From positions 186,001 through 250,000 of the forward strand of contig NZ_JACIBT010000001.1 in assembly GCF_014195445.1 (NCBI RefSeq): a DNA stretch of 64,000 nt, given 5' to 3'. Positions within the stretch are counted from its first letter, which is position 1, and every line of letters begins with the position of its first letter. Shown in pieces: positions 54,224 to 64,000 of the stretch. This stretch comes from Garicola koreensis. Lineage in GTDB: Bacteria; Actinomycetota; Actinomycetes; Actinomycetales; Micrococcaceae. The position numbers and the translations under genes are program-made. The notes beneath the pieces are model-generated. The model made no database searches, was not told the origin of the DNA, and saw nothing but the letters and a program-made list of their open reading frames with translations.

Positions 54224-55321
54224 ATGAGTGACGTCCAAGCACCGGAGGCGGTGAACCAAGACCTGGGGTCGCTCATCGGCGAGGCGCTGAGGCGCCGCAT
54301 CCGACGACGTGCCGGCCAGGCCGAACGCTATGGTGGGGACTTTGCCGAGCTGTGGGCGCAGATGGCAGAGCACGCGGCAGGGGGCAAGCTGCTGCGACCG
54401 CGGCTCTTCTTGGACACCGCAGAGGCTCTCGCGCACGGTCGGGTGCTGGATCGCGATCTGCTGATCGAACTCGGTGTGGGCATCGAAATGCTGCACTACG
54501 CCTTCCTTCTCCACGACGACGTCATCGACCGCGATTTTCGACGTCGGCAGGGTGTGAACCTGCTCGGCGAGGTCCGGGATGCTCACCCGGCGCCGCAGAG
54601 CGAGGCTGCTCGCCGCTGGGGGACGGCGGTGGGGATCCTGGCCGGTGACCTGATGATCTCTGAAGTGCACCAAATCTTCGCCCGCGCCCGGGTCCGTGAG
54701 ACGGCTGGGCACCGACTGCTGGACCTGCTGGATGACACCATCCAAGCCAGCGTCTGCGGCGAAGCGGCCGACGTCGGACTCAGTGTGGGCGCCGTCGATC
54801 CCACCCTGTCCGCCGCACTGTCGATGACCCAGTACAAGACGGCCACCTACTCCTTCGAACTGCCCCTGCGGGCGGCAGCCATCGTCGAGGGCGCCGATGA
54901 GGTGACCGAGTCTGCGCTGACCGCAGCAGCACGACATATGGGAATCGCCTACCAGCTCCAGGATGACCTGCTCTCGGCCTTCGGGGATCCCCAACGGCAC
55001 GGCAAAGAGTCAGGCTCAGACTTCCGTGAGGGCAAGCAGACCCCGCTGATCGCCTACGCACGCACCACCGATTGGTGGCCGCAGATCGCTGACTGCTTGG
55101 GCCGCGGCGACATCACTGGTCACGACACGGCCACTGCTCACAACACAGAGCAGCTGCGTGCACTGCTGCGTGACTGCGGAGCAGAACAGTTCATCCACAA
55201 TCTGCTGACCCAGCATCTGAGCGCCTTGGACCACCTGCTGGAAGGTTCCTCCCCCATATCGGCGGAGGTCCGGCGGGTGCTCAGTGTGCACAGTGATGCT
55301 ATGCGGGGCCGCAGCGTATGA
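54224..55321 (+). CDS. crtE: Geranylgeranyl diphosphate synthase
   Basis: A 365-residue all-helical prenyltransferase. First Asp-rich motif LLHDDVIDRDFRRR near residue 98 and second YQLQDDLLSAFGD near residue 245; the Lys/Arg pair GGKLLRPRLF near residue 52. It builds GGPP from IPP and DMAPP. It overlaps crtB by four bases. Confidence 0.93.
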   Translation: MSDVQAPEAVNQDLGSLIGEALRRRIRRRAGQAERYGGDFAELWAQMAEHAAGGKLLRPRLFLDTAEALAHGRVLDRDLLIELGVGIEMLHYAFLLHDDVIDRDFRRRQGVNLLGEVRDAHPAPQSEAARRWGTAVGILAGDLMISEVHQIFARARVRETAGHRLLDLLDDTIQASVCGEAADVGLSVGAVDPTLSAALSMTQYKTATYSFELPLRAAAIVEGADEVTESALTAAARHMGIAYQLQDDLLSAFGDPQRHGKESGSDFREGKQTPLIAYARTTDWWPQIADCLGRGDITGHDTATAHNTEQLRALLRDCGAEQFIHNLLTQHLSALDHLLEGSSPISAEVRRVLSVHSDAMRGRSV

Positions 55322-56211
55322 ATGAGAGCCTCGAACGCTTCACTCAGGCGTCGCAAACTGCTGCGGCCAGCGTCATAGACGCCTACTCGACCTCCTTCGG
55401 GGTCGCCACACGCCTGCTGGGCGCCCGTCATCGCGATCACGTGCGCAATATCTACGCGATGGTGCGGGTCGCCGATGAGATCGTCGACGGAGTCGCCCAC
55501 GAAGCGGGACTCGACGCCGCCGCGCAGCGACTGACGCTCAGCGAGTACGCTGACCAGACCCACCGCGCGATGGAACGCGGCTACAGCAGCGACCTGGTAC
55601 TCCATGCCTTCGCGCACACTGCGCGCGCCAGCGGCATCGGACCGGATCTGACTCAGCCGTTCTTCACGGCCATGGCGGCTGATATCGGCCGCGATGGCCC
55701 CCAGTCGGATCACGTGCAGACCTATCAGGGTGAGGACTATGACCACTACGTCTACGGTTCAGCTGAAGTGGTGGGCCTGATGTGCTTGAAGGTGTTTCTG
55801 CGTCAGGAGCAGCGCGATGCTGGCCAATTGGCCCGGCTGGAGGACGGCGCCCGTCACCTGGGGGCCGCCTTCCAGAACGTCAACTTTCTCAGAGACCTGG
55901 GCGATGACACCGATCGGCTGAACCGCAGCTACCTCACACGCGGAGAACAGATGAGCGAAGATCTGAAGGACGATTGGGTGGAGCTGGTGAACACCCAGCT
56001 TGACCAGGCCCGCCGCGCGCTGCCGCTGCTGCCCAAGGATGCCCGAGCCGCGGTCCGTGGGGCGTTGGCGCTGTTCGAAGCGCTGACCAAGAAGGTGGAC
56101 CGGACACCGGCCGCTGCCCTCTACGGCAGACGAGTGCGTGTCTCTGACCCGGTCAAGGCGATGCTGGCCGCACGAGCACTGCTGCAGACGTGGAGGGAAG
56201 CCGCAGCATGA
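55318..56211 (+). CDS. crtB: Phytoene synthase
   Basis: A 297-residue squalene/phytoene synthase family enzyme. The two Asp motifs are RVADEIVDGVAHEAG near residue 55 and NFLRDLGDDTDRLNRSYL near residue 190. It joins two GGPP to phytoene. Its stop overlaps crtI (ATGA). Confidence 0.93.
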   Translation: MNESLERFTQASQTAAASVIDAYSTSFGVATRLLGARHRDHVRNIYAMVRVADEIVDGVAHEAGLDAAAQRLTLSEYADQTHRAMERGYSSDLVLHAFAHTARASGIGPDLTQPFFTAMAADIGRDGPQSDHVQTYQGEDYDHYVYGSAEVVGLMCLKVFLRQEQRDAGQLARLEDGARHLGAAFQNVNFLRDLGDDTDRLNRSYLTRGEQMSEDLKDDWVELVNTQLDQARRALPLLPKDARAAVRGALALFEALTKKVDRTPAAALYGRRVRVSDPVKAMLAARALLQTWREAAA

Positions 56212-57818
56212 CGAAAGTTGTCGTCGTCGGGGCAGGGGTGGCTGGTCTGGCCACTGCCGGGCTGCTGGCTCAGCGCGGGTTCGAGGTCCGCGTACTGGAG
56301 AAGAACGAGGGGATCGGCGGCCGGGCAGGAAGCTTTGCGCGGCACGGTTTTCATTTCGACACCGGGCCCTCCTGGTATCTGATGCCGCGGGTCTTCGACC
56401 ACTTCTTCGCCATGATGGGCACCTCAACCTCCGAGCAGCTGGATCTGAAGATGCTTCGGCCCGGCTACCGGATTTTCCCCGAACCGGACGCGCCTGGCGC
56501 CGCATCTGTACCGATCACCGTGCCGCACGGATCCGGCGAGGTCATCGAGCTGTTCGAAACTTTAGAACCCGGGGCGGGCCGCAGGCTGCAGACCTATCTG
56601 GCCTCCGCCCAGCACGTGACCAAGCTGGCGGAGGACTACTTCCTCTACAACCCCTTCACCCGGATCTCCTCACTGCTCGGCCGGGAAGTGCTGAGCAGTC
56701 TGCCCAAGCTGCCGGGCCTGCTGCTGCGCAGTCTGCAGGGGTACGTCGCCGCACGGTTCGAACACCCGGTGATCCGCCAGATGCTCGGCTACCCGGCAGT
56801 GTTTCTGGGCACCGACCCTGCTCGTGCGCCTGCCATGTACCACTTGATGAGCGCCCTGGACCTGCAGGAAGGCGTTCAGTACCCGGCTGGCGGCTTCTCC
56901 GAGGTGGTGGCGCGCATCGGTGCGCTCGCCGAGCAGGCCGGTGCCACCATGACCACCAACGCGGAGGTCACCCGGATCCTCACGTCCACGGGCGGGGGAA
57001 AGCACCCACAGGTCACCGGCGTGCGCTGGGTCGACGACGCCGGCCAGATCCACGCCGAGGAGACCGACGTCGTCGTCTCCGCCGCTGATCTTCACCACAC
57101 CGAGACCACCCTGCTGGATGCTCCGCACAGAAGCTACCCCGAACCCTGGTGGCAGCGCCGCACCAGCGGTCCGGGGGCGCTGATCGTGATGCTGGGGGTC
57201 ACCGGAGACCTTGAGCAGCTGCCGCACCATTCGCTGTTCTTCACCGCGGACTGGTCGGCAAACTTCGAGGCGATCTTCGGCCGCGACGCCCATATCCCCC
57301 ACCCCGCCTCGGTCTATGTCTGCCGCCCCAGCGCCACCGACCCGGCAGCTGTCCCGCAGGGGTACGAGAATCTCTTCCTGCTGGTCCCCATCCCCGCCGA
57401 TGCGTCCCTGGGAGCCGGCGGCAGCGACGGCGCCGGAGATCAGATTCTCGAGCAGGCCGCCGACGCAGTGATCGACCAGGTGGCCCAGTGGGCCGATGTC
57501 CCTGACCTGCGGCGGCGAATCGTGCTCAGGAAGACCCTGGGTCCGGCCGACTTCGCAGCCGACTACAACTCCTGGCGCGGCGGGATGCTGGGCCCTGGCC
57601 ACACGCTGAGGCAGAGCGCGATGTTCCGTGCGCAGAACGCCTCGCGCCGGGTGGACGGGCTCTACTACGCCGGTGCGACGACGGCGCCTGGGGTGGGGGT
57701 GCCGATGTGCCTGATCAGCGCGGAGCTGGTGCTGAAGCGCATCCTGGGCGATCACAGTCCCGGGCCGATGCGCGAACCGACCCACGCTGCGGCCCGGCCG
57801 AGGTACGGGGCGCAGTGA
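56208..57818 (+). CDS. crtI: Phytoene desaturase
   Basis: A 536-residue FAD-dependent enzyme. Start VVVVGAGVAGLATAGLL; NEGIGGRAGSFARHGFHFD; C-terminal signature LYYAGATTAPGVGVPMCLIS. It converts phytoene to lycopene by successive desaturations. The ATG at 56208 overlaps crtB; an 18-bp longer frame is not needed. Confidence 0.93.
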   Translation: MTKVVVVGAGVAGLATAGLLAQRGFEVRVLEKNEGIGGRAGSFARHGFHFDTGPSWYLMPRVFDHFFAMMGTSTSEQLDLKMLRPGYRIFPEPDAPGAASVPITVPHGSGEVIELFETLEPGAGRRLQTYLASAQHVTKLAEDYFLYNPFTRISSLLGREVLSSLPKLPGLLLRSLQGYVAARFEHPVIRQMLGYPAVFLGTDPARAPAMYHLMSALDLQEGVQYPAGGFSEVVARIGALAEQAGATMTTNAEVTRILTSTGGGKHPQVTGVRWVDDAGQIHAEETDVVVSAADLHHTETTLLDAPHRSYPEPWWQRRTSGPGALIVMLGVTGDLEQLPHHSLFFTADWSANFEAIFGRDAHIPHPASVYVCRPSATDPAAVPQGYENLFLLVPIPADASLGAGGSDGAGDQILEQAADAVIDQVAQWADVPDLRRRIVLRKTLGPADFAADYNSWRGGMLGPGHTLRQSAMFRAQNASRRVDGLYYAGATTAPGVGVPMCLISAELVLKRILGDHSPGPMREPTHAAARPRYGAQ

Positions 57819-58150
57819 TGGGCGTCGTCTACCTGGGCCTGCTGCTGACCTTCTTGGGCTGCATGCTGCTCATAGACCGGCGGTTCCGGCTCTTCTTCTG
57901 GAATGACCGGCGTGCAGCGCTGGTGGTGACACTGGTCGGAACCGTCTTCTTCCTGCTCTGGGACGCCGCCGGCATTGTGCTGGGCATCTTCTTCCGCGGT
58001 GAGGCGGTGGTGGCCACCGGCATTATGCTCGCCCCGGAGATGCCGCTTGAAGAACCGGTCTTTCTCATCTTTCTGGTGGTGTGCACCATGGTGATCTACA
58101 CCGGAAGCGCCCGACTCATCGCGGCGGCGCCTCGGAGGCAGGTGCGCTGA
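57818..58150 (+). CDS. crtYe: C50 carotenoid cyclase subunit, CrtYe-type
   Basis: A 110-residue membrane protein with three hydrophobic helices and the conserved PEMPLEEPVFLIFLV of heterodimeric lycopene-type cyclases (lycopene cyclase domain). It works with the next gene to close the rings of the C50 carotenoid. ATG overlaps the crtI stop (TGATG). Confidence 0.85.
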   Translation: MGVVYLGLLLTFLGCMLLIDRRFRLFFWNDRRAALVVTLVGTVFFLLWDAAGIVLGIFFRGEAVVATGIMLAPEMPLEEPVFLIFLVVCTMVIYTGSARLIAAAPRRQVR

Positions 58151-58500
58151 TGAGCTATCTGGAACTGGCGGTGTGGGTCCTTGCTGCTGCGATGCTGGCC
58201 GCCGTCGTGCTGCAGCTGGTGACCCGTCGTCGTGCCGGTGCGCCTGCCCACTTGGGGGCGATTGCGATGACGATTGCTGCTCTGGTGCTGCTGACCGCGG
58301 TGTTCGACAGTCTGATGATCGCAGCGGATCTCTTCCACTACGCACCTGAGATGCTGGTGGGCGCACATATCGGCCTGGCTCCGGTGGAGGACTTCTCCTA
58401 CCCGTTGGCCGGGGCGGTGCTGCTGCCGTGCCTGTGGGCGCTGCTGCGCAGCCGGTCGCGGCCCGAGACCAGCAGCGTCCAGGAGCATCAGGCGTCATGA
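58150..58500 (+). CDS. crtYf: C50 carotenoid cyclase subunit, CrtYf-type
   Basis: A 116-residue membrane protein, the second half of the heterodimeric cyclase. The conserved GLAPVEDFSYPLAGAVLLP is present, again with three helices. Whether epsilon, gamma or beta rings result cannot be told from sequence by eye. Overlaps both neighbours by one to four bases. Confidence 0.85.
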   Translation: MSYLELAVWVLAAAMLAAVVLQLVTRRRAGAPAHLGAIAMTIAALVLLTAVFDSLMIAADLFHYAPEMLVGAHIGLAPVEDFSYPLAGAVLLPCLWALLRSRSRPETSSVQEHQAS

Positions 58501-59363
58501 TCAGAGACGATGCGCGCCAGGTTCTGCTGGCGTCGCGGCCGGTCAGCTGGATCAACACAGCCTTCCCCTTTGCCGCCGCCTACTTGCTCACTGCCGGTGA
58601 GATCGATGCGGTGCTGCTGCTGGGCACCCTGTTCTTCCTGATCCCGTACAACCTGGCGATGTACGGCATCAACGACGTGTTCGACTACGCCTCCGATGTG
58701 GCCAACCCCCGTAAGGGCGGGATCGAAGGGGCGCTGCTGCAGCCGCGGCTGCACGGACCCACACTGTGGGCGGCGGCGCTGACCACCCTGCCGATGCTGG
58801 CGGTGCTGGCCGCATGGGGAGGGCCGGCCAGTTGGGCGGCGCTGGCAGTCAGCGTCTTCGCCGTCATCGCCTACTCGGCTCCGAAGCTTCGCTTCAAGGA
58901 ACGGCCCTTCCTGGATTCGATCACATCCAGCACCCACTTCGTCAGCCCCGCTGTGGTGGGGCTGACACTGGCCGCAGCAGAGGCAACGTTCGACGTCGTC
59001 GTCGTGCTGGTTGCCTTCTTCCTCTGGGGGATGGCCGCCCACGCCTTCGGTGCGGTCCAAGACGTCCGGCCCGACCGAGAAGCTGGTATCGGGTCGATTG
59101 CCACAGTGCTGGGCGCTCGGGTGACCGTGCGGTTCTCGCTGGTGCTGTGGGTGCTGGCGGGGCTGGTGGTGCTGAGCGTCTCCTGGCCCGGGCCACTGGC
59201 CGCTGTGCTGGTGATCCCGTATGTGATCAACGCCGCGCCCTGGGCCTCAGTCAGCGAGGCGGATTCGGGCAGGATCAATCCTGCGTGGCGACGGTTCATC
59301 TTCCTGAACTACGGGGCGGGGTTCTTAGCGACGATGATCCTCATTCTGGCCTGGAACACCTGA
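58497..59363 (+). CDS. crtEb: Lycopene elongase, UbiA family
   Basis: A 288-residue prenyltransferase with about eight helices. The Asp motif NDVFDYASDVANPRKGG near residue 63 is the CrtEb/LbtBC form of the UbiA site, and VQDVRPDREAGIGSIATVLG near residue 190 the second. It adds two C5 units to lycopene, giving C50 flavuxanthin-type products. Last gene of the operon. Confidence 0.92.
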   Translation: MIRDDARQVLLASRPVSWINTAFPFAAAYLLTAGEIDAVLLLGTLFFLIPYNLAMYGINDVFDYASDVANPRKGGIEGALLQPRLHGPTLWAAALTTLPMLAVLAAWGGPASWAALAVSVFAVIAYSAPKLRFKERPFLDSITSSTHFVSPAVVGLTLAAAEATFDVVVVLVAFFLWGMAAHAFGAVQDVRPDREAGIGSIATVLGARVTVRFSLVLWVLAGLVVLSVSWPGPLAAVLVIPYVINAAPWASVSEADSGRINPAWRRFIFLNYGAGFLATMILILAWNT

Positions 59364-60647: not shown

Positions 60648-61373
60648 ATGGCCGGCGATGGCGTCAAGTACGAGTCTAGAACCGTGCGGGCCATCTGCGG
60701 CGCTGAATCTCGGACTGTATCGAAATGGGAGAAGGAAGGCTGGGAGATCGTCCCCCAGTCGCGGGGAAAACTGCGACCGGAGATCATTATTCGTCGGCGC
60801 AAACCGAAGACGCCCTGGCGTCTTGTCGCCATCGGCGGTGGGGAGCGCGCGGTCCCGATCATAGCCCTCATGGTGAATGGGATCATCCGCGAGGAGAGCA
60901 GCATTGAGGCAGTAGAGACGACTGTAGCCTCCGCAAGCAAGACCCCACCCACCCCAAGCGAAACACCTCCCAAGGAGCCGACGCCCGCAGAGTCGGCCAA
61001 AGCAGGTGACGTCGTGCTCAGTCCTGAGAGCAACACGGAACTTGCGGCGGTCCTCGGCCTCGGCCACTATTGCTACGGTTCTATCGTAGCTTTCGCAGAG
61101 AAGTACCGCGGTCAGACGATCGCCTTCGGCGGAAACATCGGAGCGATGAACAGCCACGACGGCGCCAGCATGCGGTACGACATCCTGATCGGCGCAGGCG
61201 ACTTCAGTGAGGCCTCAGCATCCGGCCCCGCGTTTCAGTTCCGCGACGTGAACCCCACGGGCGATCTACACTACACCGGCGACATGCCGGACACGATCGG
61301 TGTCGGCACCCACATTTACGAGACAGCCCAGATCGACGAATATGAGCCCAACTCATGCCTGTTCCTCTTATAG
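60648..61373 (+). CDS. DUF4839 protein
   Basis: A 241-residue protein. Residues 1-60 look like a small basic domain (TVSKWEKEGWEIVPQSRG), 60-85 a hydrophobic segment, 90-125 a Pro/Thr/Ser linker. The C-terminal 110 residues match DUF4839: GSIVAFAEKYRGQTIAFGGN, SMRYDILIGAGDFSEAS and FQFRDVNPTGDLHY. Function unknown. It is followed by the HEPN/helicase gene after 220 bp; whether they are linked is unclear. Confidence 0.75.
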   Translation: MAGDGVKYESRTVRAICGAESRTVSKWEKEGWEIVPQSRGKLRPEIIIRRRKPKTPWRLVAIGGGERAVPIIALMVNGIIREESSIEAVETTVASASKTPPTPSETPPKEPTPAESAKAGDVVLSPESNTELAAVLGLGHYCYGSIVAFAEKYRGQTIAFGGNIGAMNSHDGASMRYDILIGAGDFSEASASGPAFQFRDVNPTGDLHYTGDMPDTIGVGTHIYETAQIDEYEPNSCLFLL

Positions 61374-61484
61374 CCGGTCGAGACGGCGTTCCGCTAGACG
61401 CGGTGAGGCTCGACGCGACCCCTCCAGGGGGTTCAATTCGCCTAGGGTCGAATGTAGATGCATGTCTGTCCACCATTCGTAAAT

Positions 61485-61498: not shown

Positions 61499-61593
61499 GG
61501 GCTGACGAGAGCCCCGCGCAGCACACCTTCCGGAAATCCTTATCCAACCGGTGGACGTGCCCTGAGACCGCCGGACCACTGCAGGAGAAGACG

Positions 61594-64000
61594 ATGCGTG
61601 AGAACCTGATGGCATTGGCGTCTCTAATTCGCCGATTCCTTGCCCGCGAGCTTCCGTCGCTCGGCTCCGACTGGTGGCGCGGAGGCGTACTCGACAAGCT
61701 CTCGTATCAACAGCGGACTCAAGCTGACGAGCAGCGATGGACGACACTCGATGACCTCGACGTAGCAGCCACCTTGCGTGTGGTCGATCAGAACTGGGAA
61801 CTGTTCCGGCGACGGGGACTCGTGAAGTGGGATAACCGCAACTGGCTCAAGGAGGCATCGACTGTTCGCAACCGGTACTCGCACGACGCACCAGGCCGGG
61901 AACCCAGCGCGGACTCCGTCTACCGCGACATCGACACGCTGGCACTCCTCGCGGAGGCGCTTGACCCGGGAAGCGCAGAGGCCGATCTGCTGGCGAGTGC
62001 ACGGGCTGATGCGCTCGTACGATTGAGACCTCAGGCAGACGCCGAGCCAGCTCCATCGACCGCGAAGGAAGCTTCTTCTGGTGCCGCAAGCACCTTCTCG
62101 CCGGGCACACTGGTGCGCCTGACGGCTCGACCGGAACTGACAGGCGTCATCACTCTTGTCGACACCTCTGGGTCTCAGACGCGCCTCACGGTATTTCACG
62201 GAAGCATGACCCAGACCTACTACGAGAGCCAGGTCGAGATCGTGGATTCCATGTCGGCAGAACACCTGACGGCAGAGGAGATGAAGGCGCGACTCACTGC
62301 TGCCCACGTACTCCACCCGTCCGTGAACCGGCTCTACTCACTCAACAGCGGCCGAATCGACTATGAGCCATACCAGTACCGCCCTGTCATGAAGCTTATC
62401 AACGCCGACCGGCCCCGTCTCCTTATCGCCGACGACGTCGGCGTCGGCAAGACTATCGAGGCCGGCCTCATTATCAAAGAGCTGCAAGCACGCCAAAAGC
62501 TCGACTCCGTCCTGGTGATCTGCCCCAAACCGCTCGTGGCCGAGAACAAGTGGCGCTCCGAACTCAAGCGGTTCGGCGAAGACTTCGCGCATCTGGACAG
62601 CGCGACACTCCGTTATTGCATCGATGAGACCCGCGCCGAGGGCAGATGGCCATCGCGATATAAGAAGGCAATCCTCCCGTACTCGCTCCTCGACGAGAAG
62701 CTGCTACTCGGCGAAAGCTCCGGCCGACGGCCTCGTGCTGGCTTGGTCTCGCTTGATCCGCCGGTGAAGTTCGACCTCGTGATCGTTGACGAGGCACACC
62801 ACGTTCGCAACAGCGAGACGTGGAGCCATCGAATCGTCAAGCACCTCCTCGACTCGGCGGAAGCTGCAGTCCTTATCTCAGCCACCCCAATCCAAACCGG
62901 CAGCGAAGATCTCCGAACCTTGCTTCGACTCCTGCGCCCTGACACGTTCGTTCACAACCAGACGTTCGAACTCATGCGTGAACCAAACGCTCATCTGGCG
63001 AGTGTTGAGAGTTCGGTTCGCGTCGCCGGGGCGGGCTGGCAGGAGGATTCAGTCAAGAAGTTGGACGCTGCACTCGCGACGCCCTGGGGCAGCCGAGTCC
63101 TCCGGTCCAATCCGCGCGCTCAAGAGCTACGCGACCTTCTCGATCAGCCGGAAGTCGCCGATCACGAGCGAGTCAATGCCCTTCGAATCACACAATCCCT
63201 CAACACCTTCTCCGGGCTCGTCAATCGCACTCGACGACGAGACATCGGCTCGTTCACCACGAGGAAGCCCGAGACATTTGAGGTCGACTTCACCCCCGAG
63301 CAACAGGTCGTCCACGACCTCCTGCTCGACCTCGCCGGACGGATCTCTGTATCCAAGGGTCACGGTCAGTCGTTGGACTTCATTCTCTCCACCCTTCAGC
63401 GCCAGGCAGCAAGTTGCCTCAACGGGCTGGCTCCATTCGTAGAGGACGTACTTTCCAGAAAGCTCACTGCCGAAGAGTTAAGCGAGGCCGACGTCGATGC
63501 GGACGAACTCGATGCATCACCACTGGAGGGTTTCATCGACGAGATCCTGGAACTCGCTCGCCAAGCGTCCGACCTCACCGAGGACCCGAAGCTCGACCGA
63601 CTACTTGCCTATGTCGAGGAGAAGCAACAACTCCCCAACAACAAGTTGCTCCTGTTCAGCACCTTCCGCCACACCCTAAGATACATCGCCAATCACTTGA
63701 CGAAGACGGGAGTCCGAGTCGGCTTGGTCCACGGCGGTGTGCCGGACGACGAACGTCGAGAACTTCGCGTTCGCTTTGCCAAGGACCAGAGTGAACCGGA
63801 TGCAATCGATGTGCTCTTGTCGTCGGAAGTGGGCACAGAGGGCCTCGACTACCAGTTCTGTGATGCGTTGGTGAACTACGATCTCCCGTGGAACCCCATG
63901 CGCATCGAGCAACGGATTGGGCGAATCGACCGACGCGGCCAGGCCAGCGAGACCGTGGCAATAAAGAACCTCGTCGTCAGCGGCACAGTCGATGCTGTGA
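61594..64000 (+). CDS. Swt1-like HEPN domain fused to SNF2/RapA-type helicase, partial
   Basis: A frame of at least 802 residues runs off the right edge. ATG 61594 has GCAGGAGAAG upstream. Residues 5-100 resemble a Swt1-type HEPN domain, ending in STVRNRYSHD where R92-x4-H97 is the HEPN ribonuclease motif. Residues 165-220 look like a KOW/Tudor-like barrel (FSPGTLVRLTARPELTGVIT). The helicase core follows: DDVGVGKTIEAGLI near 280, FDLVIVDEAHHVRN near 393, LISATPIQTGSED near 428, and motif VI MRIEQRIGRIDRRGQ near 770. This layout fits an anti-phage or nucleic-acid surveillance protein; the right half of any operon is not visible. Confidence 0.9.
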   Translation, partial: MRENLMALASLIRRFLARELPSLGSDWWRGGVLDKLSYQQRTQADEQRWTTLDDLDVAATLRVVDQNWELFRRRGLVKWDNRNWLKEASTVRNRYSHDAPGREPSADSVYRDIDTLALLAEALDPGSAEADLLASARADALVRLRPQADAEPAPSTAKEASSGAASTFSPGTLVRLTARPELTGVITLVDTSGSQTRLTVFHGSMTQTYYESQVEIVDSMSAEHLTAEEMKARLTAAHVLHPSVNRLYSLNSGRIDYEPYQYRPVMKLINADRPRLLIADDVGVGKTIEAGLIIKELQARQKLDSVLVICPKPLVAENKWRSELKRFGEDFAHLDSATLRYCIDETRAEGRWPSRYKKAILPYSLLDEKLLLGESSGRRPRAGLVSLDPPVKFDLVIVDEAHHVRNSETWSHRIVKHLLDSAEAAVLISATPIQTGSEDLRTLLRLLRPDTFVHNQTFELMREPNAHLASVESSVRVAGAGWQEDSVKKLDAALATPWGSRVLRSNPRAQELRDLLDQPEVADHERVNALRITQSLNTFSGLVNRTRRRDIGSFTTRKPETFEVDFTPEQQVVHDLLLDLAGRISVSKGHGQSLDFILSTLQRQAASCLNGLAPFVEDVLSRKLTAEELSEADVDADELDASPLEGFIDEILELARQASDLTEDPKLDRLLAYVEEKQQLPNNKLLLFSTFRHTLRYIANHLTKTGVRVGLVHGGVPDDERRELRVRFAKDQSEPDAIDVLLSSEVGTEGLDYQFCDALVNYDLPWNPMRIEQRIGRIDRRGQASETVAIKNLVVSGTVDAV

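Follow-up and report, generated by a model that had tools for sequence, protein, structure and literature searches.

A HEPN-SNF2 helicase gene of Garicola koreensis and its sacsin-type ATPase neighbour form a recurrent pair best read as a two-gene defence module

The right end of the 64,000-nt stretch of Garicola koreensis DNA analysed here (the window; G000:C1:186001-250000) carries the first part of a large gene, gene A, whose reading frame is open from position 61483 and crosses the edge. Its likely start is the ATG at 61594, which is preceded at a distance of 6 nt by a ribosome binding site (AGGAG, 61583-61587) and corresponds to the start position of close homologues (MREHL... vs MREN...). 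The locus was examined over G000:C1:245000-264999 (L003). Gene A (61594..64000 of the window, + strand, continuing to window-equivalent position 65103) stops at G000:C1:251103 and encodes 1169 amino acids from this ATG (1206-codon ORF). The initial annotation, made within the window, had recommended extension of the contig to the right. Extension completed the gene and revealed gene B, encoding a sacsin-type ATPase, directly downstream; a stand-alone reading of gene A was rejected. This partner had escaped notice because it lies outside the window. The gene order is a ychF-like gene (identity assigned by eye), a DUF4839 gene, gene A, gene B and, after 543 nt, a PDDEXK_4 gene. Elsewhere in the window (54224-59363), ORFs resembling prenyl-diphosphate synthase, phytoene synthase, desaturase, cyclase-like and UbiA-like genes were recognized by eye as a carotenoid-type cluster.

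The product of gene A begins with a HEPN_Swt1 domain (amino acids 5-123; 61606..61962, + strand; Pfam PF18731, E 2.9e-10), scoring 40.9 bits against a gathering score of 27.5, which bears out the HEPN call made earlier from the sequence. The motif R92-N93-x3-H97 (RNRYSH; 61867..61884, + strand), whose residue numbers and Asn after the Arg had been given exactly, conforms to the Rx4-6H motif of the HEPN RNase superfamily, in which a polar residue follows the arginine. In the AF2 model the HEPN part is all-helical with block pLDDT values of 84-96, the motif region being at the low end. The model further predicts a small beta barrel (amino acids about 165-220; 62086..62253, + strand) that appears to resemble Tudor/KOW barrels; these were retrieved among other small barrels with weak scores by Foldseek (E 0.05 or worse) and with moderate ones by VIA (Z 7.2-8.6). 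Comparisons with PDB folds returned lists filled by this barrel and containing no HEPN chain, and the profile of alignment A5 matched no PDB sequence. The SNF2-type helicase is formed by lobe 1 (62410..62991, + strand; SNF2-rel_dom, Pfam PF00176, E 9.1e-21) and lobe 2 (63592..63939, + strand; Helicase_C, Pfam PF00271, E 1.8e-18). According to the alignment its motifs are intact (GVGKT 283-287, DEAH 399-402 and SATP in lobe 1; RIGRIDR 774-780 in lobe 2), and its best solved relative is RapA (E 1e-30), in keeping with the previous description of a RapA-like helicase with all core motifs.

Gene B (G000:C1:251096-254398; 1100 amino acids; GTG start) lies just beyond the window, and its start overlaps the end of gene A by 8 nt. 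A GHKL ATPase of the sacsin type occupies its N-terminus (Pfam SACS, E 7.4e-18; NCBIfam NF047352, 92.5 bits, cut-off 50). Solved sacsin matches the gene B profile with an E value of 1e-18, and the GHKL-type motifs ELLQNAEDA and IGKFGVGFK are conserved among homologues. At the C-terminus, profiles of 15 and 10 rows match the HNH domain of EcoKMcrA (E 7e-9 and 3.8e-4, respectively), which is also the top Foldseek match of this region, yet with an E value of only 0.026. Of the four zinc cysteines, three do not vary and one hardly does. No histidine stands at the place of the McrA HH in any of the 15 gene B rows, and CPNCH is kept in L011 only. An active HNH nuclease of the McrA type was therefore rejected, and the C-terminal zinc domain is taken to be a module for binding. 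L027 is absent from the gene B alignments A2, A4 and A6, and A5 and A6 are without phage or plasmid rows. The partner ORF of L027 (11540-16252) encodes 1570 amino acids with two sacsin-type ATPase matches in one chain.

The association of the two genes is recurrent. As judged by tblastn with both proteins, 17 of 18 assessable close loci, G. koreensis included, have a sacsin gene immediately after gene A in the same orientation (L003 and L009-L020, 13 together, plus L025, L027, L031 and L065). L009-L012 were chosen after both protein searches had matched those records; when they are set aside, pairing holds for 13 of 14. The single failure is L026, where just an inverted C-terminal piece of the sacsin gene is present, and L006, L032 and L033 were left out of the count because their contigs end inside the helicase. 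Among the carriers of close pairs are Arthrobacter, Phycicoccus, Tessaracoccus, a Thermoanaerobaculia MAG and Ensifer/Rhizobium plasmids, as well as contigs of viral collections and human-gut contigs deposited as phage and marked unverified. A plasmid of Methanomethylovorans also has the pair, its helicase being far more divergent (25-30% identity). The plasmid search covered 700 records, and H1-H6, H8-H10 and H14 were taken among the 30 matches listed; close DNA matches in plasmids were not found. Phycicoccus elongatus (L014) harbours two copies of the pair that are identical over at least 4929 bp at an offset of 9019 bp (L014:9554-14482 and +9019), either a recent duplication or an effect of assembly; the first copy follows an ORF that by eye resembles a shortened valS.

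Beyond the close relatives the association fades. More distant DrmD-like helicases (L021-L023, L028-L030, L034-L038, L066-L073 and L079-L084) have a sacsin-like match nearby in 1 of 25 cases, a count to be read with the proviso that tblastn would overlook an ATPase diverged too far and that the sequence 3' of the helicase is about 1 kb or shorter in L028 and L080, the latter stopping at the helicase. L079-L084 gave none (0/6). The one case, L073 from Bradyrhizobium, was itself chosen because both searches matched, and here three small genes separate the helicase from the sacsin-like ATPase. According to annotations, its plasmid operon (L073:7857-19695) comprises a WYL protein, the distant SNF2-type helicase, the three small genes, the sacsin-like ATPase and a DUF1156 protein, and looks like a BR/Hma type with a GHKL ATPase. 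Conversely, five plasmid records matching the N-terminus of gene B alone (L074-L078) contain no gene A match (0/5); in L075 and L077 an annotated DNA methylase and a DEAD/DEAH helicase lie upstream of the sacsin-like ATPase, and one of the five records adjoins a Qat system. L073 and these sacsin-only records rule out that the sacsin partner is exclusive to the gene A helicase, and the existence of such ATPases without gene A lowers any claim of a unique partnership. Adding L073-L084 thus weakened exclusivity but left the pairing itself unweakened. These data are in keeping with sacsin-like ATPases serving more widely in defence loci.

Other neighbours do not belong to the pair. The DUF4839 gene, noted earlier as sitting upstream, is real (60648-61373 of the window, E 6.6e-31), but as a partner it was rejected, the match being present in L003 only and in 0 of the 33 other loci compared. 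The PDDEXK_4 gene (G000:C1:254942-256159; L003:9943-11160), which matches the PADLOC candidate PDC-S26, was likewise rejected as a third member: it lies 543 nt from gene B and was not seen beside the pair in the other loci compared.

Gene A is rare and its distribution patchy. The HEPN type occurs in 1 of 197 family genomes, namely G. koreensis itself, in 2 of 396 phylum genomes (G. koreensis and G116) and in 1 of 396 order genomes, where the other eight matches start at model position 160 or later and are without HEPN; these three samples overlap. Homologues recurring as housekeeping genes, which the initial annotation had named as evidence against a defence role, were hence not what we found. 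The interval between ychF and DUF3090 that holds the pair is variable within the genus: it measures 10.5 kb in G. koreensis and 2.9 to 15.4 kb in ten more of 30 genus genomes, 16 of the 30 being without a DUF3090 match. Four ORFs picked from three of these genus intervals for their defence-like look all matched PADLOC profiles.

The HEPN motif is largely kept where the domain is present, but the domain itself comes and goes. It is found in 13 of 19 aligned helicases. Rhizobial, archaeal and Arthrobacter (L018-L020) forms are devoid of it; these comprise the other six aligned proteins and L019, which was left out of alignment A1 and of the tree because a frameshift splits its helicase over three ORFs. 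(The alignments do not extend to L065 and later loci.) R92 does not vary among the 13 HEPN-bearing proteins, and N93 and H97 hardly do; Rx4H is kept in 12, including that of G. koreensis, with L016 having Tyr for His, and L026 has Asp for Asn93. On the helicase tree, which is midpoint-rooted and unsure for the long archaeal branch, the HEPN label requires two changes, most simply two losses. This suggests that HEPN was probably ancestral in most of the clade, yet could be dispensed with, and both its absence and the His to Tyr replacement in L016 imply that an active HEPN is no precondition for the existence of the pair. A small conserved protein is encoded just upstream of the HEPN-less rhizobial helicases (L009:8286-8840, L010:8285-8815, L012:8282-8812); it has no significant Pfam family and looks helical and HTH- or sigma-like by eye. 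It was considered as a detached HEPN and rejected, with no BLAST similarity (one protein compared) and no Pfam HEPN match (three proteins), and an archaeal upstream ORF was likewise ruled out.

In part of the loci the pair resides among BREX, restriction-modification (R-M) or other defence genes. Tessaracoccus has a type 2 BREX locus with the order PglX-PglY-PglZ-A-B-BrxD-BrxHI, i.e. with the pair between PglZ and BrxD. In the gut contigs L031 and L033, PglZ is followed by gene A after 22 and 2 nt, respectively; the pair is complete in L031, while L033 stops inside the helicase. The PglX match of L031 (3-6739) is distributed over two ORFs, which are separated by other genes spanning about 3.8 kb. 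In L032, a type III mod/res pair, of which res matched weakly (E 1.9e-10), precedes gene A by 16 nt, and the contig stops inside the helicase. Among rhizobial loci, the pair follows HamA/LmuA-like and LmuB-like genes by 0.7 kb in L010 and PDC-M68 genes in L012, and in Ensifer (L009) a Mko-like nuclease/helicase lies directly 3' of it. ZacB/ZacC are located 5 kb 5' of the Arthrobacter pair of L018, Vsr adjoins the pair downstream in L025, and other PADLOC matches (RmuC-like, PDC-M16A, PDC-S36) are near the pairs of L016 and L020. The HMM scans took chosen neighbours, partly picked for a defence-like look (L041-L043). Six neighbours tested in L013, L014 and L015 and one tested in L027 were without a PADLOC match, and no methylase was matched among the scanned neighbours outside L017, L031, L032 and L033.

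BREX is nevertheless not a constant companion of the pair. Similarity searches with the type 2 genes of G. koreensis and one type A PglZ found BREX in L017, L031 and L033 only, a count in which a weak BrxHI-like helicase match in L037 was left aside. G. koreensis has its own type 2 BREX (PglX, PglY, PglZ, BrxD and BrxHI; G000:C1:267921-282848, L004:2922-17849). It starts 13.5 kb downstream of gene B, with DUF3090 and other genes in between, and is thus near the pair without sharing an operon. Between its PglZ and BrxD, in the position occupied in Tessaracoccus by the A-B pair, lies a gene for 365 amino acids whose C-terminus weakly matches the end of Tessaracoccus PglZ.

Context and patchy distribution support the defence role proposed for gene A in the initial annotation, and we regard it as very probable that the A-B pair as a whole is a defence module. 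The intact motif inclines us, with some caution, to see the HEPN domain as its putative RNase effector, and the specific notion that the pair backs up BREX or R-M systems is a possibility to which we give somewhat less than even weight. Taken together, the view that A and B are an abortive defence module of auxiliary or backup character, whose RNase effector is HEPN, has, in our judgement, about an even chance of being correct. In such a module the RapA-like motor and the Tudor/KOW-like barrel would survey nucleic acid or transcription complexes, while the GHKL ATPase, with the zinc module that is HNH-related and lacks the catalytic histidines as part of the same protein, would serve as an ATP-driven clamp or gate that keeps the complex inactive. 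HEPN domains are known to act as dimers. Once foreign DNA or the failure of a BREX/R-M response is detected, the HEPN domains could meet as an RNase, cut RNA and halt the cell or the phage. PrrC and RloC are backup effectors for type I R-M systems, and an auxiliary or backup role of the pair may be likened to theirs. Several observations weigh against this reading: six of the 19 aligned proteins, and L019 too, are without HEPN, and L016 has Tyr in place of the HEPN His; the BREX of G. koreensis itself is 13.5 kb away beyond other genes and, with the queries used, BREX was found in three other loci only; the neighbours tested in L013, L014, L015 and L027 are PADLOC-negative; sacsin-type ATPases occur without gene A (L074-L078); and the barrel-filled PDB fold lists show no HEPN chain.

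It is tempting to go further and to envisage, though tentatively, a widely spread and hitherto unrecognized form of two-gene immunity: a RapA-like motor would join a sacsin/HSP90-type gate, possibly on transcription complexes, in switching on a HEPN RNase, and the system would be plugged into BREX/R-M operons as a fail-safe, the HEPN-less forms being the same core with a different effector. If true, this would add a defined, testable module to the set of BREX backup effectors, tie a chaperone-family (sacsin) ATPase with a regular partner to bacterial immunity, and provide a bacterial example of cooperation between HEPN, helicase and HSP90-like modules. HEPN-bearing and HEPN-less relatives would be natural controls for the role of the effector.

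The strongest competitor of a HEPN-driven module, which we still consider rather unlikely, is that the core doing the work consists of helicase and GHKL ATPase, which would loop DNA in a MORC-like manner or act as a restriction machine, while HEPN would be an optional domain, either RNA-binding or an add-on, rather than the effector. The HEPN-less rhizobial, Arthrobacter (L018-L020) and archaeal pairs, the lost His of L016 and the two label changes, which fit loss from a HEPN-bearing ancestor, are all compatible with such a core, as are the operons of L073, L075 and L077, in which annotations place sacsin-like ATPases with other helicases and methylases. GHKL ATPases encoded with SWI2/SNF2 helicases in R-M operons also argue in its favour (PMC2292703). 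An add-on is harder to reconcile with the retention of Rx4H in 12 of 13 HEPN-bearing proteins, and no other intact nuclease was recognized in A or B, the HNH-like domain being devoid of the histidines.

It appears improbable that gene A encodes a helicase subunit of DISARM or BREX type (DrmD/BrxHII) that operates alongside the marking of self by a methylase. DISARM DrmD is indeed its best PADLOC profile (E 1.7e-119, the match beginning after the HEPN part), in three loci gene A is embedded among BREX genes or comes immediately after them, and the distant helicase of L073 shares its operon with an annotated DUF1156 protein. Yet gene A scores 347.9 with the NCBIfam DrmD equivalog, below the cut-off of 610, and among the neighbours scanned no methylase was matched outside L017, L031, L032 and L033. 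Neither drmA/drmB nor a methylase was found among the neighbours scanned in G. koreensis. We attach similarly little probability to a toxin-antitoxin pair of a toxic gene A and a chaperone-like antitoxin, gene B. The overlap and fixed order of the genes would suit it and HEPN toxins are known in such systems (PMC3710099), but gene B is nearly the size of gene A, conserves its GHKL motifs and persists where HEPN is absent. A RapA-like factor for RNA polymerase recycling or stress, unrelated to phage, is very improbable, since the likeness to RapA as best solved relative and the Tudor/KOW-like barrel are outweighed by the rarity, patchiness, plasmid location and defence neighbours of gene A in several loci and by its score of 166.7 with the RapA equivalog NF003426 (cut-off 576). 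We know of neither a HEPN domain in RapA nor a sacsin partner of it.

No report of a HEPN-SNF2 helicase combined with a sacsin-type ATPase was found in the open-access PMC literature, and the portion of a 2023 review available to us (PMC10952713) holds nothing on the pair. PADLOC TmtA has a HATPase N-terminus that resembles gene B (E 1.4e-47), although only about 300-400 of the 1302-1655 positions of the three best profiles were matched by gene B; TmtA is what we take to be Tiamat. The DUF499 ATPase, which in Hma/BR systems is often fused to HEPN and comes with a methylase, had no match among the genes scanned at the G. koreensis locus.

Single features of the pair have precedents. A 2026 survey of BREX counts HEPN RNases, within BREX/BR loci, among backup effectors, as it does Schlafen RNases joined to a minimal histidine kinase, which is related to GHKL (PMC12839542). 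The HEPN proteins of that survey are stand-alone, MNT-fused or DUF499-fused, unlike gene A, and the terms hsp90, sacsin, GHKL, HATPase and MORC are absent from its main text (PMC12839542). The same source describes Tudor and Swi2/Snf2 domains with a degenerate REase in BrxHII and RapA, Tudor and Swi2/Snf2 domains in BR helicases, and DUF1156 as a mark of BR-type methylases (PMC12839542). A precedent for gene A is WQE_15321, tabulated as a HEPN(Swt1/Abi2)-SWI2/SNF2 fusion and predicted to be active (Anantharaman 2013, PMC3710099); as in gene A, a Swt1-family HEPN and a SWI2/SNF2 ATPase are joined in one chain, whereas its table entry mentions no sacsin-type partner. For the pair, a parallel is provided by the R-M operons in which GHKL ATPases of the MORC/paraMORC type are encoded with SWI2/SNF2 (SFII) helicases and nucleases (Iyer 2008, PMC2292703). 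These share with the present locus a GHKL ATPase encoded with a SWI2/SNF2 helicase and differ in that here the ATPase is sacsin-type, a term absent from the text of that paper as available to us, and the candidate nuclease is HEPN. The best reading of A and B is a two-gene defence module whose general kind is known and whose combination of parts is new.
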